This document shows, piece after piece, positions 4,611 through 15,425 of a DNA stretch of 64,000 nucleotides. Origin of the DNA: Actinomyces wuliandei (GTDB lineage: Bacteria > Actinomycetota > Actinomycetes > Actinomycetales > Actinomycetaceae); assembly GCF_004010955.1 (NCBI RefSeq), contig NZ_CP025227.1, forward strand, positions 2,480,001-2,544,000, read 5' to 3'. Position 1 is the stretch's first letter, and each line of letters opens with the position of its first letter. The notes under the pieces were generated by a model that saw only the letters and a program-made list of their open reading frames with translations, was not told the origin of the DNA and ran no database searches. The position numbers and the translations under genes are program-made.

Positions 4611-6497
4611 ATGCCCTCTCTGACCTCCGTCCTCCCTGCACCTGACGCCCCCCTGCCTCAGCCGCCCGTCACCGGAGCCGCCGCCCTCATGCGGTGGCTC
4701 CTGCGCCGGGCAGCCGTCCCCATCACCATCGGCGCCCTGGCAGCCACAGTCTCCAACGTCATCCAGGCCATCGTGCCCGCCTTCCTGGGGGCGGCCCTGG
4801 ACTCCGGTATTGAGGACGGCCTCAACACCCGGGTCTGGGGCATCGGCCTGCTGCTCCTGGTGCTGTTCGTCGTCTACGCCGTCGGGGACACCGGCATGTC
4901 CTACTTTGGTGTCATCGCCTCCATGCGCACCACCTTTGACGTGGACAGACTAGTAGGCCGCCAGGTCTCCATCACAGGCAGCTCCCTGCCCCGCCAGGCC
5001 TCCACCGGCGAGGTCGCCTCCATCGTCGCCTCCGACGCCCAGTACCTGGGGCAGCTCGTCAACTCCGTGCCCCAGCTGGTTGGCGCAGGGCTCAGCTTTG
5101 CCGTGGTCGCCGTCCTCATGCTGAGGACCTCCGTGCTCCTGGGGACCATTGTCATTGTCGGTATGCCCCTGGTGGCCTGGGTCGTCACCCTGGTCATCAG
5201 GCCGCTCCAGCGCCGCCAGGCCGTCCAGCGCGAGGCCCAGGCCCAGGTCACCACGGTGACCACGGACACCGTGGCGGGCCTGCGCATCCTGCGCGGTATC
5301 GGCGGGGAGGAGGTCTTCGCCCGGCGCTACCGGGACGCCTCCCAGGAGCTGCGCCGCCGGGGTGTGGACGTGGCCCGCCCCCAGTCGCTCCTCATGAGCC
5401 TCCAGGTCCTCCTGCCCGGCCTGTTCGTGGCCATGGTCGTGTGGGTGGCCGCGCGCATGGCAGTCTCGGGCACCATCACCGCCGGGGAGCTGGTGACCTT
5501 CTACGGCTACACCGCCTACCTGGCGTGGCCGCTGACGGTCTTCTCCATGGCCGTACAGAACTTCACCCGGGCGGTGGTGGGGGCACGCCGTCTGGCCCGC
5601 CTGCTGCACGTCACCCCGGCCGCCGGGGCCGTCCCCGAGCGGCTGGACCTCGACCCCTCCCACGGCGAGCAGGTCAGCGGGGACCTGGTGGACTCCGCCA
5701 GCGGGGTGCGCCTGGCCCAGGGGCGGATGACCGCTGTGGTGGCCTCCGACCCGGACGTCTCCGCCGGGCTGGCCACCCGCCTGGGCCGCTTCACCGACAC
5801 CGGACCAGCCGTGACCCTGGCCGGGCGGCCCCTGACGGACATGCCGCTGGAGAAGGTGCGGGCCAGCGTCGTCGTCTCCGGGGCCACGGCCCAGCTGTTC
5901 ACCGGCACCCTGCGCGAGGCCCTGGACGTGCGCGGTGGCCCCCTCCCCCAGCCGGTGGACGTGCGCACCCTCGTCCAGGCTGAGGCGCGCCGGGAGGGTG
6001 TGGCCGACGTCGACCAGCAGGTGCGCCCCCAGCCCCGTCACGTCCCGGGCGACGAGCGCCTGGAGGCGGCTGTCGAGGTTGCTGACGCCGCCGACGTGCT
6101 CACCTCCTTGGAGGAGGGCCTGGCCGGGATGATCACGGAGAAGGGCCGCTCGCTGTCCGGCGGCCAGCGACAGCGGGTGGCCCTGGCCCGCGCCCTGCTC
6201 ACCGAGGCACCCACCCTGGTGCTCATCGAGCCGACCTCCGCCCTGGACTCCCACACGGAGTCCCGCGTGGCCCAGCGCGTGTCCACGGCCCGGCGGGGCC
6301 GGACCACGGTGGTGGTCACTGCCTCCCCCCTGGTCCTGGAGGCCTGCGACGAGGTGGTCCTGCTCGGTGAGGACGGCACGCAGCGCCTGCGCTCCACCCA
6401 CCGTGACCTGCTGGCCCGCGCCCGGGCCGGGGAGCCCGCCGCCCAGGACTACCGCCGGATCGTGGCCCGGGCCACCGGCGAGGAGGTGAGCCGCTGA
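4611..6497 (+). CDS. Heterodimeric ABC exporter half with degenerate nucleotide-binding domain
   Basis: A 628-residue fused membrane/ATPase half-transporter with about six membrane helices in residues 30-325 and an NBD from about 340. The NBD is strikingly degenerate. The Walker A region reads MTAVVASDPDVSAGLATRLG with no GxxGxGKS/T. Walker B is LVLIEPTSALD, with Ile in place of the Mg-binding Asp. The switch-His position reads VTASPLV. The signature LSGGQRQRVALARAL is intact. The stop overlaps the start of the next gene (TGATG), so the two halves are translated together. Together they form one composite ATP site from the partner's Walker motifs and this protein's signature. Multidrug, lipid or peptide export is likely; the substrate is unknown. 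Confidence 0.92.
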   Translation: MPSLTSVLPAPDAPLPQPPVTGAAALMRWLLRRAAVPITIGALAATVSNVIQAIVPAFLGAALDSGIEDGLNTRVWGIGLLLLVLFVVYAVGDTGMSYFGVIASMRTTFDVDRLVGRQVSITGSSLPRQASTGEVASIVASDAQYLGQLVNSVPQLVGAGLSFAVVAVLMLRTSVLLGTIVIVGMPLVAWVVTLVIRPLQRRQAVQREAQAQVTTVTTDTVAGLRILRGIGGEEVFARRYRDASQELRRRGVDVARPQSLLMSLQVLLPGLFVAMVVWVAARMAVSGTITAGELVTFYGYTAYLAWPLTVFSMAVQNFTRAVVGARRLARLLHVTPAAGAVPERLDLDPSHGEQVSGDLVDSASGVRLAQGRMTAVVASDPDVSAGLATRLGRFTDTGPAVTLAGRPLTDMPLEKVRASVVVSGATAQLFTGTLREALDVRGGPLPQPVDVRTLVQAEARREGVADVDQQVRPQPRHVPGDERLEAAVEVADAADVLTSLEEGLAGMITEKGRSLSGGQRQRVALARALLTEAPTLVLIEPTSALDSHTESRVAQRVSTARRGRTTVVVTASPLVLEACDEVVLLGEDGTQRLRSTHRDLLARARAGEPAAQDYRRIVARATGEEVSR

Positions 6498-8233
6498 TGG
6501 CGCTGCCCGTCGCGCCCGGCCGGGTGGCCATGCGCAAGACCTTCGGGATCATGGCCTCCTACCGCTGGCGCTTCGTGGTCGCGCTGATCCTGCAGGTCCT
6601 GGGGATCCTGGCCCCCCTGGTGGCACCCCAGCTGCTGGGGCGCCTGGTCTCGCGGGTGTCTGCCGGCACTGCGGACCGAGGCTACGTGGACCTGGTGGTC
6701 CTGGTCATCGTCGTCGTCACGCTCGTGGGGGCCGTGGTCAACCGCTACGCCCAGATGTACGCCCGCACCCTGGGGGAGTCGGTCTTCGCCGACCTGCGTG
6801 AGCGCATGATGGGGCGGGTGGTGCGCCTGCCGCTGAGCGCGGTGGAGACTGCGGGCACCGGGGACCTGGTGGGGCGCACCACCAACGACGTCTCCCGCAT
6901 CGAGTTCCTGGTGCGCGTGGGCATCCCCCAGATCATGGTCTGCACGGTGACGATCGTCTTCACCGTGGTGGCTGCCGCCGTGTCCAGCCCACTGCTGGCC
7001 CTGGGGCTGCTGGTGATCGCCCCCCCGGTGTGGGCGATGATGAGCTGGTACCTGCCGGTGTCCGTGCCCGCCTACCGCGCGTCCTCGGCGGCCTACGCAC
7101 GGCTCAACGGGACGGTCTCGGAGACGGTGGACCACGCCGAGACGGTGGACGCCCTGGGCATGGGCGCCCGCCGGGAGGCCACCATCCTCACTGCGGTCAC
7201 GGAGGCCTGGTCCCTGGACCGCTACACCGCAGCCCTGCGGGTGCGCCTGTTCATGGTGCTCGACGTCGCCTGGCGGGCGCCGGTGGTGGTCATCCTCCTG
7301 TGGGGCGGGTTCCTGGCCTCACGCGGCTACACCTCCCTGGGGGCGATCACCACGGTCAGCCTCTACGCCATGGAGCTGCGCAGGCCGGTGGGCCAGCTCA
7401 TGTTCTGGATCGACCAGGTCCAGATCGCCCAGGCGTCCCTGTCACGCATCCTCGGGGTGGAGGAGGTTCCCGACGACCGCACCCCCACCGGGCAGCAGCC
7501 TGCGGACCGGCGTGTCCGTCTCAGAGACGTGCGCTTCTCCTACCGGGAGGGAACGGAGGTGCTCCACGGCATCAGCCTGGACCTGGTCCCCGGTGAGCGC
7601 CTGGCGGTAGTCGGCCCCTCCGGCTCGGGCAAGTCCACGCTGGGGCGGATGCTGGCGGGCATCAACCCGCCCACCTCTGGAGAGGTGACGGTAGGAGGCG
7701 TGCCCCTGACCAACCTGAGTGAGGAGGAGCTGCGGCGCAACGTCGCGCTGATCACCCAGGAGCACCACGTGTTCGTGGGCTCGGTGGCCGACAACGTGCG
7801 GCTGGGCAGCCCGCAGGCCGACGACGCGACGATCCGGGGCGCCATTGAGGCGATCGGGGCCAGCAGCTGGGTGGAGGCACTGCCCCAAGGGATGGACACG
7901 ATGGTGGGCTCGGGCCACCTGACCCTGAGCCCTGCGCAGGCCCAGGAGCTCGCCCTGGCCCGGCTGGTGCTGCTGGACCCGCACACGCTGGTCCTGGACG
8001 AGGCCACCTCCCTGCTGGACCCCCACGCCGCCCGCGCCCTGGAGCGGACCCTGTCCACCGCCCTGGCGGGGCGCACCGTGGTGGAGGTGGCCCACCGTCT
8101 CTACACCGCCCAGGACGCCGACCGGGTGGCCGTGGTCATGGACGGGCGCGTCGTCGAGCTGGGCACCCACGAGGAGCTGGTGGCCCTGGGCGGGGAGTAC
8201 GCCAACCTGTGGCAGGCCTGGAGCCAGGAGTGA
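6497..8233 (+). CDS. Heterodimeric ABC exporter half with intact Walker motifs and degenerate signature
   Basis: A 578-residue half-transporter translated in overlap (TGATG) with the preceding half. The membrane domain covers about residues 20-310. The NBD has canonical Walker A VVGPSGSGKST, Walker B LVLDEATS with catalytic Glu, and the switch His (VAHRL). The ABC signature is replaced by LSPAQAQELALARL instead of LSGGQ. This is the mirror image of the defects in the partner. In the heterodimer one composite site is complete and the other lacks Walker A, Walker B Asp, His switch and signature all at once. No regulator is adjacent. Confidence 0.93.
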   Translation: MALPVAPGRVAMRKTFGIMASYRWRFVVALILQVLGILAPLVAPQLLGRLVSRVSAGTADRGYVDLVVLVIVVVTLVGAVVNRYAQMYARTLGESVFADLRERMMGRVVRLPLSAVETAGTGDLVGRTTNDVSRIEFLVRVGIPQIMVCTVTIVFTVVAAAVSSPLLALGLLVIAPPVWAMMSWYLPVSVPAYRASSAAYARLNGTVSETVDHAETVDALGMGARREATILTAVTEAWSLDRYTAALRVRLFMVLDVAWRAPVVVILLWGGFLASRGYTSLGAITTVSLYAMELRRPVGQLMFWIDQVQIAQASLSRILGVEEVPDDRTPTGQQPADRRVRLRDVRFSYREGTEVLHGISLDLVPGERLAVVGPSGSGKSTLGRMLAGINPPTSGEVTVGGVPLTNLSEEELRRNVALITQEHHVFVGSVADNVRLGSPQADDATIRGAIEAIGASSWVEALPQGMDTMVGSGHLTLSPAQAQELALARLVLLDPHTLVLDEATSLLDPHAARALERTLSTALAGRTVVEVAHRLYTAQDADRVAVVMDGRVVELGTHEELVALGGEYANLWQAWSQE

Positions 8234-8701: not shown

Positions 8702-9785
8702 GTGACACGTCCAAGTGAACGGCCGACCCCTGAGCAGGTTGAGCGTGCCGAGGAGCAGATCGTCGAGCAGTCCAAGCGGATCGACTTCTACATCACCGAG
8801 TACTCCGTGGAGATTCTGGCCCAGAAGGTTCCGGGACGACGAGTACGTCATCCCGGACTACCAGCGGGAGTTCACCTGGGAGGACCACCGCAAGTCTCGC
8901 TTCATCGAGTCCCTGATCATGGGGCTGCCCATCCCCTTCATCTTCTTCTGGGAGATGCCTGACGGCAGGCTTGAGATCGTGGACGGGTCCCAGCGCCTTA
9001 GAACGCTCAACGAGTTTATCTACGGAGGATTCCGGCTCGGGGAGCTTGAGGCCCTGACCCACCTGTCAGGGCTCCGGTTCGGCGACCTGCTGGAGTCAAG
9101 GCGGCGCAAGATCCGGAACCGGTCCATTCGCGGAATTGTCCTGAACGAGCACGCCGACGAGGCGGCACGGCTGGACATGTTCGACCGCATCAACACAACC
9201 GCCAAGATCGCCAACAGCGCCGAGATACGCCGAGGAGCGCTTGCCGGGCCGTTCATGGACATGGTGACAGAACTCGCTCAGCTCCCGATCTTGACCGACC
9301 TTGCCCCCATGCCCGCCAAGACCAGGAAGGAGCGCGGGCACGAGGAGCTTGTGACGCGCTTCTTTGCCTACGGCGACGGGCTAGAGGAGTACCGGGACCG
9401 TCCCGCCGATTTTATCTTCTCCTACTCGAAGAAGATGAATAAAGAGTTTGAGGCTGACCCGGCGCTGGCAGACAGTTATCGTGAGTGGTTCATGACAGTC
9501 ATGAGCTTTGTCTCACGCAACTTTCCATTTGGATTCAAAAGGACAGAGAAAGGTAAGTTCACTCCTCGGGCGCGATTCGAGGCCATTGCGGTTGGGTCTG
9601 CGCGCGCACTGGCGGAGGAGCCGGCTCTTGCAGAGGCTGCCGCCGAGGATACTGGTGTCTCCTCCTGGATCGACGGGAGAGAGTTCCAGAAGATCACCAG
9701 CGCTGACGGCGCGAACGCGAAGGCGCGCCTCAACGGGAGGATCGACTTCGTGAAAGACAGGCTGGTGAGCCGTGGCGACTACTGA
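8702..9785 (+). pseudogene. DUF262 (ParB/GmrS-like) domain protein, frameshifted near the N-terminus
   Basis: The GTG at 8702 with a strong ribosome binding site starts a frame reading VTRPSERPTPEQVERAEEQI and on to SVEILAQK, typical of DUF262 N-termini. From about 8830 the homologous reading continues in the next frame (FRDDEYVIPDYQREFTWED). Removing one G at 8827-8828 joins them as AQK-FRDDEY. The rest is intact: IVDGSQRLRTL, the DGxQR nucleotide-binding/hydrolysis motif of DUF262 (about 8982-8996), and FDRINTTAKIANSAEIRRG. The repaired protein would be about 360 aa with no DUF1524 HNH domain. DUF262 proteins occur in GmrSD, SspE and other phage-defence systems. The 3' end overlaps the HEPN gene by 14 bp. 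Without a repair, an internal start would give an N-terminally altered protein. Confidence 0.85.
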
Positions 9786-10533
9786 ACTCGTCCGGTTCTT
9801 CGAGGAGCGGCACGACGAGATCAAGGAGTACGTGTCGTTCTTGCAGAACCTGGAGAAGGCCGCGCAAGGAGGGGCACCACGGCTCCGTGGGACAGGTGCG
9901 CAGATCACGACCACGCAGACGAGGATCCTGAGCTCGAGCCTCTATCTTCAGCTCTACAACCTGGTTGAGGCCACCGTGGTTCGGTGCCTTGAGGAAGTTG
10001 CGGCCGCAACTGAGAAGGCTGGGTGCCGTCCCGGTGACCTGAGTGATGAGTTGAGAACCCAGTGGGTGCGCTCCGTCGCACGTACCCACATCAACGACCT
10101 CACTCCCGAGAAAAGACTGGAAGCCGCCCTGGATCTGTGCAACCATCTCTTGGGGCAGGAGCCGGTCAAGGGCTTCAAGATCGACCCCGGCGGAGGAGGA
10201 AACTGGGACGACGACTCCATCAGAAGGCTCTGTGAGCGCATTGGTTGCAAGCTGGTGATCTCCCCGGACGTCTTCCAGGAGGCCAAGCGCAACATCAGAC
10301 ACAACATGGGCGCGCTCAAACTCGTCAAGGACCGTCGTAACAGGCTCGCGCACGGCTCGTTGTCCTTTGTTGACTGCAGTGACGGCGTGGCAGTCAGCGA
10401 GCTCAAGAAGGTTGCTGATGCGGTCGGTGGCTACCTCCGGGAGGCCGTTGACTGCTTCGAGGCCTTTATCAGGTGTGAGATCTCGGATAGGGGTGACCCT
10501 GCGAAGAAGAAGAAGGGGGTACTCATCTCGTGA
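9772..10533 (+). CDS. HEPN-like nuclease of the MAE_28990/MAE_18760 type
   Basis: A 253-residue soluble protein with GTG start inside the end of the DUF262 gene. It carries the HEPN active-site pattern Rx4H as RNRLAH (R189-H194), preceded by an all-helical segment (SSSLYLQLYNLVEATVVRCLEE) typical of HEPN folds. The MAE_28990 family is known next to DNA methyltransferases and restriction genes, and HEPN domains are usually metal-independent RNases acting as toxins or abortive-infection effectors. Its stop overlaps the methyltransferase start (GTGA), so the three genes form one translationally coupled operon. It is the only member without a frameshift. Function as a defence effector is inferred. 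Confidence 0.82.
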   Translation: MATTELVRFFEERHDEIKEYVSFLQNLEKAAQGGAPRLRGTGAQITTTQTRILSSSLYLQLYNLVEATVVRCLEEVAAATEKAGCRPGDLSDELRTQWVRSVARTHINDLTPEKRLEAALDLCNHLLGQEPVKGFKIDPGGGGNWDDDSIRRLCERIGCKLVISPDVFQEAKRNIRHNMGALKLVKDRRNRLAHGSLSFVDCSDGVAVSELKKVADAVGGYLREAVDCFEAFIRCEISDRGDPAKKKKGVLIS

Positions 10534-11610
10534 GGCAGAAAGGAGGCACTCCCTCGATCCGTGCTGTCGACCTGTTCTGCGGAGTCGGCGGGCTCACCCA
10601 CGGACTCGCGCGGGCCGGCATTGAGGTCGTAGCCGGGGTCGACATTGATCCCGCATGCAGGTACCCCTACGAGGCCAACAACAAGGCAAGGTTCATTGAG
10701 AGGGACGTGAATGACCTTGATGCCTCGGAGATAGGAGATCTCGTCAACGGGTCTGGGCTCAGCCTGATTGCGGGGTGTGCGCCCTGCCAGCCGTTCTCGA
10801 CATACAGCCGCTCTGGCCGCGGCAAGAGGCGCGGTAACGACTGGCAGCTGGTTGAGGTATTCGGCAGGCTGGTGAAAGAGGTCCAGCCTGACATCGTGAC
10901 GATGGAGAACGTCCCGCAGCTGCTGGACCATCCAGTATTTAGCCGGTTCGTGGAGGACTTGAGTGGCTACTCGGTCGGGTGGTCCGTGGTCCAGGCTGCC
11001 CGTATCGGTGTCCCGCAGACAAGAAAACGTCTTGTCCTGATCGCCTCAAGGCTCGGCGGCGCCGGCCTTGCCCTCCCGCAGGACGAGCAGGAGACAAGGA
11101 CAGTGCGTCAGGCTATCGGGGGGGCTCCGCCCCATCAGGGCTGGCGAGTCGGACCCCGAGGACCGGTTGCACGTCGCCTCTCGGCTGAGCAGGGTGAACC
11201 TGGAGCGGATACGTCACTCGAAGCCGGGGGGGACGTGGCGTGACTGGCCCGAGGAGCTCCGGGCCGCGTGCCACCGCAGGACCAGTGGTGCGACCTACCC
11301 GAGCGTGTACGGACGCATGTCCTGGGACGAGGCGAGCCCAACCATCACCACTCAGTGCTTCGGCTACGGGAACGGACGTTTCGGCCACCCTGAGCAGGAC
11401 CGGGCCATCTCGCTACGTGAGGCTGCTGTCCTGCAGACCTTCCCACCTAGATACAAGTTCGTGCGACCAGACGAGCCTGTCCGTTTCAGCGTTCTTGGAC
11501 GCCTCATCGGCAACGCCGTTCCCGTCCGCCTGGGAGAAGTAGTAGGGCGTACGATAGTGTCGCACGTCCGCACGGGCAGTCCGTCCGGGCGTGCGGTAGG
11601 GGCTCAGTAA
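10530..11610 (+). pseudogene. DNA (cytosine-5) methyltransferase, frameshifted in a G7 tract
   Basis: The frame from GTG 10530 contains C5-methyltransferase motifs in order: AVDLFCGVGGLTHGL (SAM binding), APCQPFSTYSR with the catalytic Cys, MENVPQLL, and QTRKRLVLIAS. At 11118-11124 a run of seven G shifts the frame. With six G the text continues as QAIGGLRPIRAGESDPEDRL and runs through GGTWRDWPEELR, YPSVYGRMSWDEASPTITTQ, GHPEQDRAISLREAA and RLIGNAVPVRLGEVV to the stop at 11610, giving a complete methyltransferase of about 359 aa. As sequenced, the protein ends at 11243, soon after the target-recognition region begins. The lesion may be decay, a phase-variable contingency tract or a homopolymer sequencing error. 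Confidence 0.9.
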
Positions 11611-11736: not shown

Positions 11737-12339
11737 ATGCAGCCGAGCATGCTCCCACCCCGCACCCTGAGCACCTCCCTGCCCGCCCCTGCTGAGCAGC
11801 GGCGGTGGAGGAGCCAGGTCCTTCCCACCCTGCGGGGAACGGTGCTCGACGTCGGCGCCGGACCAGGGTTCTGCGGCGCGGTACTTGACCCGCAGGTCTC
11901 CTGGCTGGCCCTTGAGCCCAGGCCCGGGCGGCGGCTGACCGCCGCTGTGCGCTCCCGCCCCCGTTCCCGGCTGCTGGAGGCCACGGCCGAGCAGGTCCCG
12001 TTGGAGGATGGCAGCGTGGACGCCGTCGTCTGCTCCACCGTCCTGTGCTCGGTCACCGACCCGGCACATGCCCTGGCCGAGATCTTACGGGTACTGCGCC
12101 CCTGCGGTCGGCTCGTGTTCTTTGAGCACGTTGCCGCCCCTCCTGGCACAGCTGCCCGCCACGTGCAGGGACTCGCCGCCCCCCTCACCCGGCTACTGGG
12201 CCACGGGTGCGATCCCTGCCGGGACACGGCCGCCACCATCTACCAGGCTGGGTTCTCCGCCGTGGAGCTGGAGACCCTGCGCACCGGTGGCCTCCTGGGC
12301 AGGCTCGTCCCGGTCGTCCAGGGCCAGGCGGTGCGCTAG
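11737..12339 (+). CDS. Class I SAM-dependent methyltransferase (Methyltransf_11/UbiE-like)
   Basis: A 200-residue cytoplasmic enzyme. SAM-binding motif I is TVLDVGAGPGFC, motif II LALEPRP, the acidic motif GSVDAVVCSTVLCSV with DPAHALAEILRVLRPCGRLVFFEHV typical of the UbiE/METTL7-like subgroup, and a conserved C-terminal VVQGQAVR. Substrate is not predictable. The upstream boundary is uncertain: ATG 11737 or the in-frame ATG at 11749 (MLPPRTLS) are both possible. The stop codon TAG immediately abuts the left end of the first IS copy. Confidence 0.88.
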   Translation: MQPSMLPPRTLSTSLPAPAEQRRWRSQVLPTLRGTVLDVGAGPGFCGAVLDPQVSWLALEPRPGRRLTAAVRSRPRSRLLEATAEQVPLEDGSVDAVVCSTVLCSVTDPAHALAEILRVLRPCGRLVFFEHVAAPPGTAARHVQGLAAPLTRLLGHGCDPCRDTAATIYQAGFSAVELETLRTGGLLGRLVPVVQGQAVR

Positions 12340-13527
12340 CCTTGATGTTTCGTGGGTGGGGTGGGTGGGGTTGTTGGGGTGGGGTTGGTTGTGGCGTGTG
12401 GGTGTGGCGGGGTGGGGCGTGTGGTCGCGGTGGGTGGGCCTTGCCTGCCGACGGGTCCTTCCTGGGGGTCGTGGGTGGGTGGTGGTTTGCTAGTGCTGTG
12501 GGTCGGCGTGCGCGCAGGGTGGTGATCGCTGGGGTCAGCAGGTCGGCGAAGGGGGCTGGGGGTCTTGCAGCGGGTGGTGGTGCGCCGCGCGTGGCGCGTG
12601 ATGACACGCGTGGCCCTGGGCCACCCGCCCACGTCGACCAGGTCCGTCAGCCCTGCCACGTCCGCCGCCTCGCGGGGGCCGCGTCGGCGCCGCAGGCAGG
12701 GGTCCAGGCCTGGGCGGGGACCAGCCTGCAGGCCCGCGACATGTCACTGGGCAGGGTGAGTCCGACGCTGCAGGACACCCCTCTGCGCTCCAGGGCGGCC
12801 AAGGTGGCCTTGGTCCCACCAGCGGCGTCGGTGCGCACGAGCACCTTGCGTCCGGGCCCGGGGCCCAGGCCCACACGGGCCAGCACCACGGCGATGACAG
12901 CCTCATGGTCGGCGGCGGTGTCCGACCCCGCGCTCGCGGGCCGCAGCATGACCGCGGCGTTCTCGCCAGCACCTTGGGGACCGTGGTCGGTCCACGCGGT
13001 CAAGGGACGGAGCCCAAAGCCCCTTCCTGCCCTTCTTGAAGGTCGGTGCCACCCCCCTCCTTCATTGTCAGGGTGGGCGGTGACCAAGGTGGCGCCGGTA
13101 TCAGTGACCAGCGGCCGCTGGGCGCTGACAGCGGCCGTCAGCGCCCACGCTCCGGCCAGGGTCCAGCCCGCGCGGCGCGCCCTGGCCAGGACCACCGCGC
13201 GCTCAACCACCAGCGACAGCGCCAGGTCGAGGACGACCTTGACCGGGTCATGGCGCGCCAGCAGCCTGGACCACGGCGCCAGAACCTGTGACAGCAGCAC
13301 GTCCAGCCCGCGGGCGCGCACCGTCTCGGCCAGCAGCACTCCACCACCATGAGCGAGCACGTTGACCCAGCCGGTCCCGACACCCACCAACAAGCACAAC
13401 CCTGCTGCAGTCCCCACCTCGAAGCTGTCCCTCCCCTGAAACACGACAGACCCCAACAACCCACACCACTCCAGACGAAACGACACCTTCACCCCCGCCT
13501 CAGCCCCTCAACCACAAAACCCCGAGG
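12340..13527 (-). mobile_element. Defective IS1380-family element, copy 1
   Basis: A 1188-bp segment nearly identical to 54607-55785. It starts with CCTTG and ends with CGAGG; the outer about 20 bp form imperfect inverted repeats (left CCTTGATGTTTCGTGG, right complement CCTCGGGGTTTTGTGG), and CCT ends fit the IS1380 family. The transposase remnant reads leftward. The left end is extremely G/T-rich on the + strand, with a run of G-tracts at 12353-12385. Flanks ctag and ccag are at best an eroded 4-bp target duplication. This copy has 9 bp more than the other one because of an extra GGGTGGGGT-like unit at the left end. Confidence 0.8.
12647..13492 (-). pseudogene. IS1380-like transposase remnant
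   Basis: The open frame of 281 residues contains IS1380-type DDE transposase blocks: a start like GVGTGWVNVLAHGGGVLLAE, LLARHDPVKVVLDLALSL, ATLVTAHPDNEGGG around the family's 'D-A-T-L-V-x-A-H-S' motif, then AGSDTAADHEAVIAVVLA, RKVLVRTDAAGGTKA and SVGLTLP. About 80-100 residues expected between DLALSLV and the DxDATL block are missing, and the Asp preceding ATLV falls in altered sequence (VTDTGATLV). The C-terminal part continues in another frame (AGLTDLVDVGGWPRATRVI, about 12590-12660) and then degenerates. It is therefore not expected to be active. Confidence 0.75.
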
Positions 13528-13781
13528 CCAGTGAGGCCAAGTATCGAGTAGGTGCTGATTGCCGCCGAGCGTGGCAACCTGCACTGGCACGACTGAACGT
13601 CCAACTGCGTCAGGACACAGCCTTCAAACCTACGAAGCGCAGACGCTGGGACCAGGCGGAAGCGCTGGTGACCTCAGCCTTGAAATTATAACGGCTAGGC
13701 ATCGCGACGCGCCTCCTGGCCGCTTCTGCCTGGAGCAGGCGGCAAGCACAGACGAGCATGACCAGTCCTCGTCACGGACCC

Positions 13782-15425
13782 CTAGAAGGCTGACACAGCC
13801 TCCGCCTTCTCCCACAGGCTCCTGGCCTCGGCCTCGTCGTAGGTGAGGACCTCGTTGCCCGGGACCTCAGCTGTCCAGCCGACCATGACCGGGCTGGTGA
13901 CGTCACTGGCTGGGGTGCACGCGCCCTCGTAGACGGTCTCGCAGATCTCCTCCCGGTTGATCGCCCGGGACAGCGCGGCGCGGCGCAGGCGCCCCTCCGT
14001 GTCCGTGCCCCAGTGCGGAGCGTCGACGTTGATGGCAAGCCCCTGGACCAAGTCACCCGGCAGGGTGACAGCCCGCCCCTCCAGGTCCTCCTCAAAGGTG
14101 GACAGCCTCGTGCTCGGGACGGCGTCGACGACGTCCAGCTCCCCGGCAAGCAGGTCGGCGTAGGAGGCGTCGTCGTCAGGGTAGATCATGAAGGTCACCC
14201 CGTCGTTGGCGACGGCGCGCTCCCCCGAGTAGAGGGGGTTGGGGACCAGGATGACCTCAGAGTGGTGGCTCCACTCATCCAGGACGTAGGGGCCGTTGCC
14301 GACGGGGGACTCCCCGAAGGCCTCCATGTCCTTGAAGGCGGTGGCAGGCAGGGGGTAGAAGGCGGGGCATCCCAGGCGCTGCACGAAGTCAGCGGTCGGC
14401 TCGGTCAGGGTGATGGTGAAGGTGCGGTCATCGACCTTGGACAGCCCGGTCAGCTCGGAGTCCTCCTCTGCGGAGAAGCCCTCAATGGGCGCGTAGAGGT
14501 GGGAGGCGACGTGGTTGTGGGAGGCCTGGGCCCCGTAGTCCCACGCCCTGATGAAGGAGTCCGAGGTCACGGCCGTGCCGTCACCAAAGGCCCAGTCGTC
14601 CTTGATCGTCACCGTGAAGTGCTGGTTGTCCTCGGTCGTGATGGACTCGGCCATCTCGTTGACCACCGTGCCGTCCTCCCGGTAGCGCACCAGACCGGAG
14701 AAGAGCAGGTCCACGACCCGCCTGCCCCCCGGCTCGTTGGTGGTGGAGGGGACCAGTGGGTGCCGGGGCTCGGTGCCCCGGGCGCGGATAACGCCGTCCT
14801 CAACCGAGGTCCTCATGGCCTCGTAGACAGGCAGCCCGTTCCACGACCACGTGACGTCGGAGACCGTGGAGGACCAGCCGCCCGCCCCGTCGTGGTACCA
14901 CAGGGGGATGACGGGCAGGTCGGCGAGCAGGACGGACTGGGCCTGCTCGCACAGCGCGAGCACCGCGGCAGCGTCGTCAGCAGCGGCCGCCTGGGCCAGC
15001 AGGTCGTCGAGCTCGACGCTGGAGTAGTCGGTGGTGTTGGCCTCCCCACCCGTGCGGTACTGGCTGGCCAGGACACTCGCGGCAGAGGGGTAGTCCGCCC
15101 TCCAGCTGGAGCGGAAGGCCCCCACGACCGTGCGGTTGTCAACCTCGTCACGCAGCGCGGATAGGTCGGCGAGGGGCAGCGGCTCCATCGTGACGCCCAA
15201 GGTCGAGCTCACCGAGTCGCACACGGCCTCGACCCAGGCCTGGTGCGGACCGTCAGCGTTGTAGGCCAGCGTGAGGACGCCACCACCAGACGTGCCCTGG
15301 CTACCGGCCGCACCGGAGGTGGGCGAGCCCTCCGGTGAGCCCGACGAGCACCCGGAGGCCAGGAGCACCGCAGCAGCACCAAGGCCCAGGCCGAGGCTGC
15401 GGCGGGAGATAGGCGTGTTACGCAT
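13782..15425 (-). CDS. Circularly permuted oligopeptide-binding lipoprotein (SBP_bac_5/OppA family)
   Basis: A 547-residue extracellular solute-binding lipoprotein: n-region MRNTPISRRS, hydrophobic core, lipobox LASGC with C26, and a Gly/Ser linker to about residue 48. Residues 49-205 (VLTLAYNADGPHQAWVEAVC, then FRSSWRADYPS, DLPVIPLWY, WNGLPVYEAM) match the part that is normally C-terminal in OppA-type proteins. Residues 210-547 (VIRARGTEPRHPLVPSTTNE, then LFSGLVRYREDGT, PVGNGPYVLDEW, AALSRAINREEI, TPASDVTSPV) match the part that is normally N-terminal. The protein stops at LWEKAEAVSAF, exactly where ordinary homologues run on into the 'LTLSYNADGGHQAWV' segment. No permease or ATPase lies nearby, so it is an orphan binding protein. 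It is third in a possible bioY-LLM-SBP run, 89 bp behind the LLM gene. Confidence 0.9.
   Translation of the reverse strand: MRNTPISRRSLGLGLGAAAVLLASGCSSGSPEGSPTSGAAGSQGTSGGGVLTLAYNADGPHQAWVEAVCDSVSSTLGVTMEPLPLADLSALRDEVDNRTVVGAFRSSWRADYPSAASVLASQYRTGGEANTTDYSSVELDDLLAQAAAADDAAAVLALCEQAQSVLLADLPVIPLWYHDGAGGWSSTVSDVTWSWNGLPVYEAMRTSVEDGVIRARGTEPRHPLVPSTTNEPGGRRVVDLLFSGLVRYREDGTVVNEMAESITTEDNQHFTVTIKDDWAFGDGTAVTSDSFIRAWDYGAQASHNHVASHLYAPIEGFSAEEDSELTGLSKVDDRTFTITLTEPTADFVQRLGCPAFYPLPATAFKDMEAFGESPVGNGPYVLDEWSHHSEVILVPNPLYSGERAVANDGVTFMIYPDDDASYADLLAGELDVVDAVPSTRLSTFEEDLEGRAVTLPGDLVQGLAINVDAPHWGTDTEGRLRRAALSRAINREEICETVYEGACTPASDVTSPVMVGWTAEVPGNEVLTYDEAEARSLWEKAEAVSAF

Follow-up and report, generated by a model that had tools for sequence, protein, structure and literature searches.

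Known DppA-type proteins and natural permutants

When a whole protein is circularly permuted, this is generally taken to be a rare, one-off event that separates distant relatives. The closest solved relative by sequence of the protein described here is DppA of Mycobacterium tuberculosis (7jls, 8wd9 and 6e3d) with its Dpp importer, and both parts of the protein align with DppA nearly end to end. According to PMC6751184, the halves of DppA comprise residues 1-249 and 267-541 with a hinge at 250-266, and W442 and D445 are residues of its peptide pocket. In EppA, another cluster C protein, domain III is one contiguous stretch according to PMC7312458.

A natural permutant has been described in cluster B. 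TpMglB-2 (Tp0684) of Treponema pallidum is a tethered, permuted glucose-binding protein for which PMC4990184 showed both ligand binding and a conformational change. The name 'Type Ic / Cluster Bc' was proposed there, and the authors suggested that tethering might be the reason for the permutation. Features of its own are the Type I / cluster B sugar-binding fold, a fourth hinge crossing and a permuted part that resembles its unpermuted counterpart poorly in sequence. It was the only natural permuted binding protein found among the literature matches listed, among which no report of a permuted OppA/DppA or other cluster C peptide-binding protein was found either, both searches covering few of the subscription journals. 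The review PMC3320104 sets out permutation by tandem duplication, fusion and trimming.

Structure of the permuted gene

The window, which is the whole stretch of Actinomyces wuliandei DNA that was analysed (64,000 nucleotides), carries a gene with the following parts.

13782..15425, minus strand: gene for a circularly permuted SBP_bac_5 (DppA/OppA-type) lipoprotein, ATG start, 547 aa, stop codon included
15348..15425, minus strand: residues 1-26, signal peptide with a presumed twin-arginine-like SRR and lipobox cysteine C26 (sequence and alignment)
15282..15347, minus strand: residues 27-48, Gly/Ser-rich linker (sequence)
14811..15281, minus strand: residues 49-205, corresponding to the C-terminal part of ordinary DppA (DppA chain 379-534; phmmer alignment and order scans)
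15093..15104, minus strand: W108 to D111, probable equivalents of the DppA pocket residues W442 and D445 (placed by alignment and the W-x-x-D spacing)
14799..14810, minus strand: residues 206-209, at the join from the native C-terminus to the native N-terminus (..YEAMRTSVEDGVIRARGTEP..)
13785..14798, minus strand: residues 210-547, corresponding to the N-terminal part of ordinary DppA (DppA chain 26-376) and ending at the cut loop

A first-pass annotation had proposed that the two parts of this binding lipoprotein stand in swapped order, and phmmer against PDB sequences bears this out, with residues 208-546 aligned to chain 26-376 of M. tuberculosis DppA (7jls, 303.9 bits) and residues 49-204 aligned without gaps to chain 379-534 (117.4 bits). 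The boundaries drawn there, 49-205 and 210-547, are right to a few residues, and the signal peptide is still in place as claimed, its lipobox cysteine being followed by the Gly/Ser linker. Compared with DppA, whose order is ordinary, the window protein has the ~156 residues that normally close the chain in the leading position, and the importer genes are missing. The canonical chain order of SBP_bac_5 / cluster C proteins is not that of the window protein, and at the level of sequence the gene is confirmed as a circular permutant of an OppA/DppA-type lipoprotein.

Family membership is given by Pfam, where SBP_bac_5 scored 184 bits against a gathering cut-off of 32.4; as the sole Pfam family matched at E<=1, it leaves no sign of cluster B (type I) membership. 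In NCBIfam, no model scored above its own cut-off for the proteins of the window, P0087, P0105, P0098 and L108. For annotation, it matters that linear profiles match permuted binding proteins piecewise only. By motif name, and judging by eye, we take SRR to be twin-arginine-like and C26 to be the lipobox cysteine (LASGC), which is invariant in all 20 aligned permuted rows. The W and D of the DppA peptide pocket are kept in the alignment as W108 and D111, with a deduced numbering offset.

The window protein would share with TpMglB-2 that it is a lipid-anchored binding protein of an ABC importer, naturally permuted within a single lobe. Unlike TpMglB-2, the window family belongs to cluster C, its parts are 41-60% identical to 28 unpermuted relatives, and it appears to have several origins.

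Occurrence of the swapped order

Homologues of the same order, proposed earlier as a check, were found in many genomes. Among the 120 listed homologues of the window protein, 92 are swapped and 28 have the ordinary order, and a scan with ordinary references over 240 homologues (120 listed each for the window protein and for L019, a gene of Micrococcales MAG 73-13) gave 93 swapped and 147 ordinary, both sets being enriched for permutants because the queries were permutants. Across 49 Actinomyces genomes, a permuted gene occurs in 29, an ordinary one in 5, neither in 15 and both in none. The frame is split or broken in five of these 29 permuted genes (G002, G015, G022, G030 and G046); split-frame genes include the loci L093, L095, L096 and L097 as well as that of G002.

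Permutants are uncommon in broader samplings, being present in 11 of 396 genomes sampled at the order level (E<=1e-125) and in 3 of 394 at the class level (E<=1e-130). The family of G394 has permutants in 6 of its 81 genomes, and one genus there holds both orders (G1032 permuted, G1020 ordinary); the family of G341 has permutants in 2 of 18 genomes and ordinary matches in 5, and the order of G806 has a permutant in 1 of 77. G341 itself (f20) contains three permuted copies, L122, L123 and L153.

An odd chain order together with the broken frame of the G015 copy might suggest an assembly or sequencing artefact, namely a misassembled repeat of two OppA genes. Such an artefact would have to recur in the many sources of the 92 swapped homologues and in 29 Actinomyces genomes, and the window's own genome offers no close unpermuted paralogue as a source: the paralogue that had been suggested as a control was sought at E<=0.001, and the sole other match is 32% identical over residues 245-521. 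Because independent assemblies carry the swapped order, misassembly is ruled out, and the chance of an artefact is practically nil.

Operon position in relatives

In relatives, the permuted gene stands immediately 5' of dppB-dppC-dppDF, the position that the ordinary gene has in other genomes. Among 61 permuted loci, 52 have a same-strand dppB gene no more than 1.5 kb downstream; this count is redundant, some genomes being represented twice. Unpermuted loci with 900 bases of flank or more all have dppB within that limit (107 of 107, two further loci being too short), and dppC and dppDF come next in loci with long flanks. Nine permuted loci gave no dppB call. These are L001 and L109 from the window genome; L091 and L093 from G015; L012 and L096, one Actinomyces oris genome fetched twice, in which dppB is present and overlaps the shifted end of the SBP match; and L123 with L152 (one place) and L153, which are extra permuted copies of G341 lacking an adjoining dppB. 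The query genes of L079 match Opp/Dpp-type permease and ATPase models in NCBIfam, the permeases below the curated cut-offs.

The unpermuted genes L017 of Actinomyces and L026 of Microbacterium hold the same operon position as the permuted ones. As the permuted gene fills the operon slot of the ordinary gene, the permuted protein takes the place of ordinary DppA; in relatives, it would by association be the binding protein of a peptide importer, with a peptide specificity expected from the family. The adjacent dppB, dppC and dppDF of a DppABCDF component are present beside permuted relatives and absent beside the window gene.

Joins, cut sites and the lipid anchor

Ordinary proteins typically end with a sequence like VPLYYEITKA, start after the anchor linker with a sequence like IVTANGTEPQNPL and contain ISPW-SG-TFQIAYNADG inside. 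Permutants show a join like VPLYYAVTKADGTPVRANGTEPQNPL; their part of the chain after the linker opens with a sequence of the type FTIAYNADG, and the chain closes with one such as ISQW, ISPWE or ISAF. Only a few residues are added at the join, in many cases Asp-Gly or Glu-Gly, and residues 206-209 of the window protein have comparable short counterparts in permuted relatives. From the turn preferences of such residues, we read the Asp-Gly or Glu-Gly join as a probable tight hairpin that leads from the last strand to the first.

The new chain ends lie in one short loop in Actinomyces, Microbacterium, f45, f8 and f20. In L019 (ORF 5598-7295), which precedes dppB-dppC-dppDF, the native inner link is kept and the join is of the same kind, and the cut lies ~55 residues beyond the common one in the same lobe. 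No other gene with the L019 cut was found in 396 genomes at E<=1e-150, and among 120 listed L019 homologues it occurs only in P0121, which is L019's own protein. Since permutants of the common cut served as the starting point of the searches, ascertainment accounts for part of its dominance.

Both cuts, at chain 376-379 and about 427-433, fall in the C-terminal half of DppA as delimited in PMC6751184, to whose numbering the offset is presumably about four; the lipid anchor would therefore shift to that lobe in every case seen. The unpermuted DppA/OppA proteins of Actinomyces (P0087, L017) and Microbacterium (L026, P0120) have the ordinary order, with the lipid anchor beside the N-terminal lobe. 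Compared with EppA, whose domain III is contiguous (PMC7312458), the permutants would have this domain divided between the two chain ends.

The signal type does not follow the chain order. What we take to be a twin-arginine motif occurs in Actinomyces rows of both orders and is missing from permuted Microbacterium rows, and a link between the permutation and the twin-arginine signal was rejected.

Number of origins

For the trees, every row was first put into ordinary order, and careful trees of 86 and 73 rows were computed. The permutants are not monophyletic: they are not joined in the 86-row tree, whose bootstrap had not settled, nor in the 73-row tree, which has an ordinary-order outgroup and three long end branches (L153, L135 and L139). 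Five order changes are needed in the 73-row tree, all forced by starred branches. There, the Actinomyces permutants have ordinary Actinomyces genes as their sister (100/100), the permutants of the Microbacterium halotolerans group are grouped with ordinary Microbacterium genes (100/99), and that of G806, from another order, stands with an ordinary gene of its own genus (99/92); the f8 and f20 permutants form one of the five changes, inseparable from each other, and L019 forms another. P0087 and L017 in Actinomyces and L026 and P0120 in Microbacterium are unpermuted local sister sequences of permutants. One clade for the 20 permuted rows of the common cut is rejected (dlnL 366, p-AU 0.00048).

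Quick trees of the N-terminal and C-terminal parts taken separately (69 rows, with L066, L135, L139 and L153 dropped from the 73) both place the permutants of Actinomyces, Microbacterium, f45 and L019 beside or within groups of local unpermuted kin; the C-only tree is weak, with 8 order changes of which 4 are forced by starred branches. When full-length sequences are compared, five of six lineages have their nearest matches among unpermuted genes of their own family, f8 only just so (72% to its own ordinary genes, 71% to other ordinary ones). The values for f20 are 59% to its own ordinary genes, 62% to other permuted and 63% to other ordinary genes, and taken alone this family gives no support for a local origin. 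On these trees and identities, the permutation appears to have arisen about five times, in Actinomyces, in Microbacterium, in three further families, two of them unseparated, and in one MAG; the branching of f8 and f20 could put the number anywhere from four to six.

Alternatively, there might have been one ancient permutation, whose distribution would then reflect horizontal transfer or retention interrupted by many reversals. Consistent with this are the nearly identical cut loop and similar D-G join in lineages other than L019 and the failure of f20 to group with unpermuted genes of its own family; in addition, counts of order changes on a tree are blind to gain versus loss, although gain is the natural reading because the outgroup rows and the three solved relatives aligned have the ordinary order. 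A single event is contradicted by the rejected clade of 20 permuted rows and by L019, which is cut elsewhere. Transfer would not place both halves, each analysed separately, with local unpermuted kin in four lineages, and repeated reversal to the exact ordinary termini is implausible. One ancient permutation is thus quite improbable. Chimeras or transfer of the permuted order are rejected for those four lineages by the N-only and C-only trees and the segment identities. The similar D-G joins could still reflect shared descent of the join, against which the trees of the two halves speak.

Proposed route of permutation

The first-pass annotation had explained the swapped order by a tandem duplication followed by trimming, and that route fits what is found in relatives. 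Two unpermuted binding-protein genes stand in tandem directly 5' of dppB in L079 (9881-13206) and in L177 (1674-5499), and L175 (2665-8032) has three successive unpermuted copies, dppB being unmatched throughout the 10.5 kb opened there. Such tandem copies at the dppB locus could be the raw material for permutation. In the three regions opened, no fused double gene was found as an intermediate, only separate copies. The MAG gene L019 also agrees with a duplication route, as its native N-to-C link is intact and its C-to-N join is of the common type; fusion of a tandem pair with trimming at both ends would give either cut. The scheme of PMC3320104 would give the same orders; particular to the present case are several parallel events at one operon locus, with sisters of both orders.

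These observations suggest the following course. In an ancestor within Actinomyces, the gene before dppB would have been duplicated in tandem, and the copies would have been fused, a short turn linking the native C-terminus of one to the native N-terminus of the other. Trimming would then have put the start and end of the chain in one loop of the C-terminal lobe, with the signal peptide and lipid anchor retained. The product should still adopt the two-lobed trap fold of the family, with peptide binding retained, and its membrane tether would be on the C-terminal lobe, no longer on the N-terminal one. Rearrangements of this kind would have occurred about five times in Actinomycetes. In the lineage of the window, the importer genes would have been lost and an IS-linked rearrangement would then have cut the locus, leaving an orphan, drifting copy. 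As a whole, a natural DppA permutant of a DppABCDF-type importer, made by duplication, with several origins and orphaned here, is in our judgement a probable explanation.

Whether the change of order is of any consequence can be approached from the cut sites. The permutation may be neutral, the native termini being close and fused tandem copies being easily trimmed wherever the chain permits, and this has an even chance of being right. Joins of a few residues would imply close termini, and tandem copies do occur; on the other hand, the cuts are not scattered, most lineages using one loop and the second site lying in the same lobe, a pattern to be read with the under-sampling of cuts elsewhere by queries of the common cut. 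That selection in Actinomycetes convergently moved the lipid anchor of DppA-type proteins from the N-terminal to the C-terminal lobe about five times, at two cut sites of one lobe, because a tether on the other lobe alters the docking to DppBC, is a tentative and somewhat unlikely alternative.

Loss of the importer in the window lineage

The first-pass annotation had noted no adjacent transporter genes, and accordingly neither a dppB nor a dppC match was found within the 64-kb window; distant ATPase matches occur at 215-928, 7538-8230 and, a short one, 6129-6320. The window's own genome (G000) has no dppDF match at E<=1e-40, and its best dppB match is only 25% and lies elsewhere than the gene. 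The nearest relative, G015, likewise has no dppDF match at E<=1e-40, and its stretch L093 contains no dppB or dppC match. The missing importer is a loss in the window's lineage, not a property of the family.

The downstream side of the gene is marked by a further feature.

12339..13531, no strand assigned: insertion-sequence segment, which we take to be IS1380-type, with a DDE_Tnp_1_4 ORF at 12650-13492 (minus strand)

In L093 of G015, the gene is followed by typA ~4 kb on, and of 12 further loci examined, five (L003, L014 and L095-L097) have typA behind dppDF. In the window genome, typA is ~2 Mb away from the gene. Synteny between the window and G015 stops at 13530, where the insertion-sequence segment starts, and a 97-99% identical IS copy upstream of typA, at about C1:513677-515215, adjoins a 56-base match to G015 sequence that is missing at the window locus. 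From this, we infer that the IS pair marks a chromosomal rearrangement that split the locus; the importer would have been lost first, in the common ancestor with G015, and the IS-linked rearrangement would have followed later.

Between the binding protein and typA, where dppBCDF would stand, L093:3039-6803 in G015 holds a 343-aa ORF that matched nothing in PADLOC and one of 394 aa that resembles defence models of the capP/RmrA type weakly. Near the IS in the window, a defence-like run at 8715-11610 comprises a GmrSD_N/NsnA-like ORF (8715-9785), a HEPN MAE_28990-like ORF with no PADLOC match (9772-10533) and a C5 cytosine methylase whose coding sequence is split between two frames (10530-11243 and 11068-11610).

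State of the window copy

With the importer lost, a function can be assigned to the window copy with less certainty than to its relatives. The window protein departs from the alignment at 35 columns of at least 90% conservation, compared with 0-6 in 17 of the 26 aligned rows and 9-36 in eight others (P0080 36, P0078 22, P0108 21, P0074 18, P0112 17, P0095 12, P0101 10 and P0098 9). Its branch is a long one, at 0.77-0.80 in the 86- and 73-row trees, and so is that of P0080, at 0.75-0.79. The dN/dS (NG86) of the window gene is 0.21 and 0.30 against the two G015 pieces, where five neighbouring genes have 0.12-0.25, and 0.51 against L094, where the five neighbours have 0.29-0.42, which indicates that constraint is weaker than in the neighbours, yet has not vanished after the loss of the importer.

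Given the 35 changed conserved columns and the broken frame in G015, the window copy may not function. There is a little less than an even chance that it is merely the decaying remnant of an importer that was lost and does nothing today. The absence of the cognate dppDF from both G000 and G015 and the dN/dS against L094 above the neighbours' range also favour decay. In the other direction, the window ORF is intact, W108 and D111 of the pocket are kept, and dN/dS against the G015 pieces lies within or near the neighbours' range and far below neutrality, though both genomes are without the importer; moreover, other permuted rows such as P0080, P0078 and P0074 depart often too. Between a relic and a copy with a kept or changed role, the prospects are nearly balanced.

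Significance for the family

Close sisters with and without the permutation in the same operon slot, in several lineages, constitute natural matched pairs, which make the path, the cost and the benefit of a permutation testable. Such permuted and unpermuted pairs could also serve to test whether the place of the lipid anchor on the binding protein matters for ABC import.
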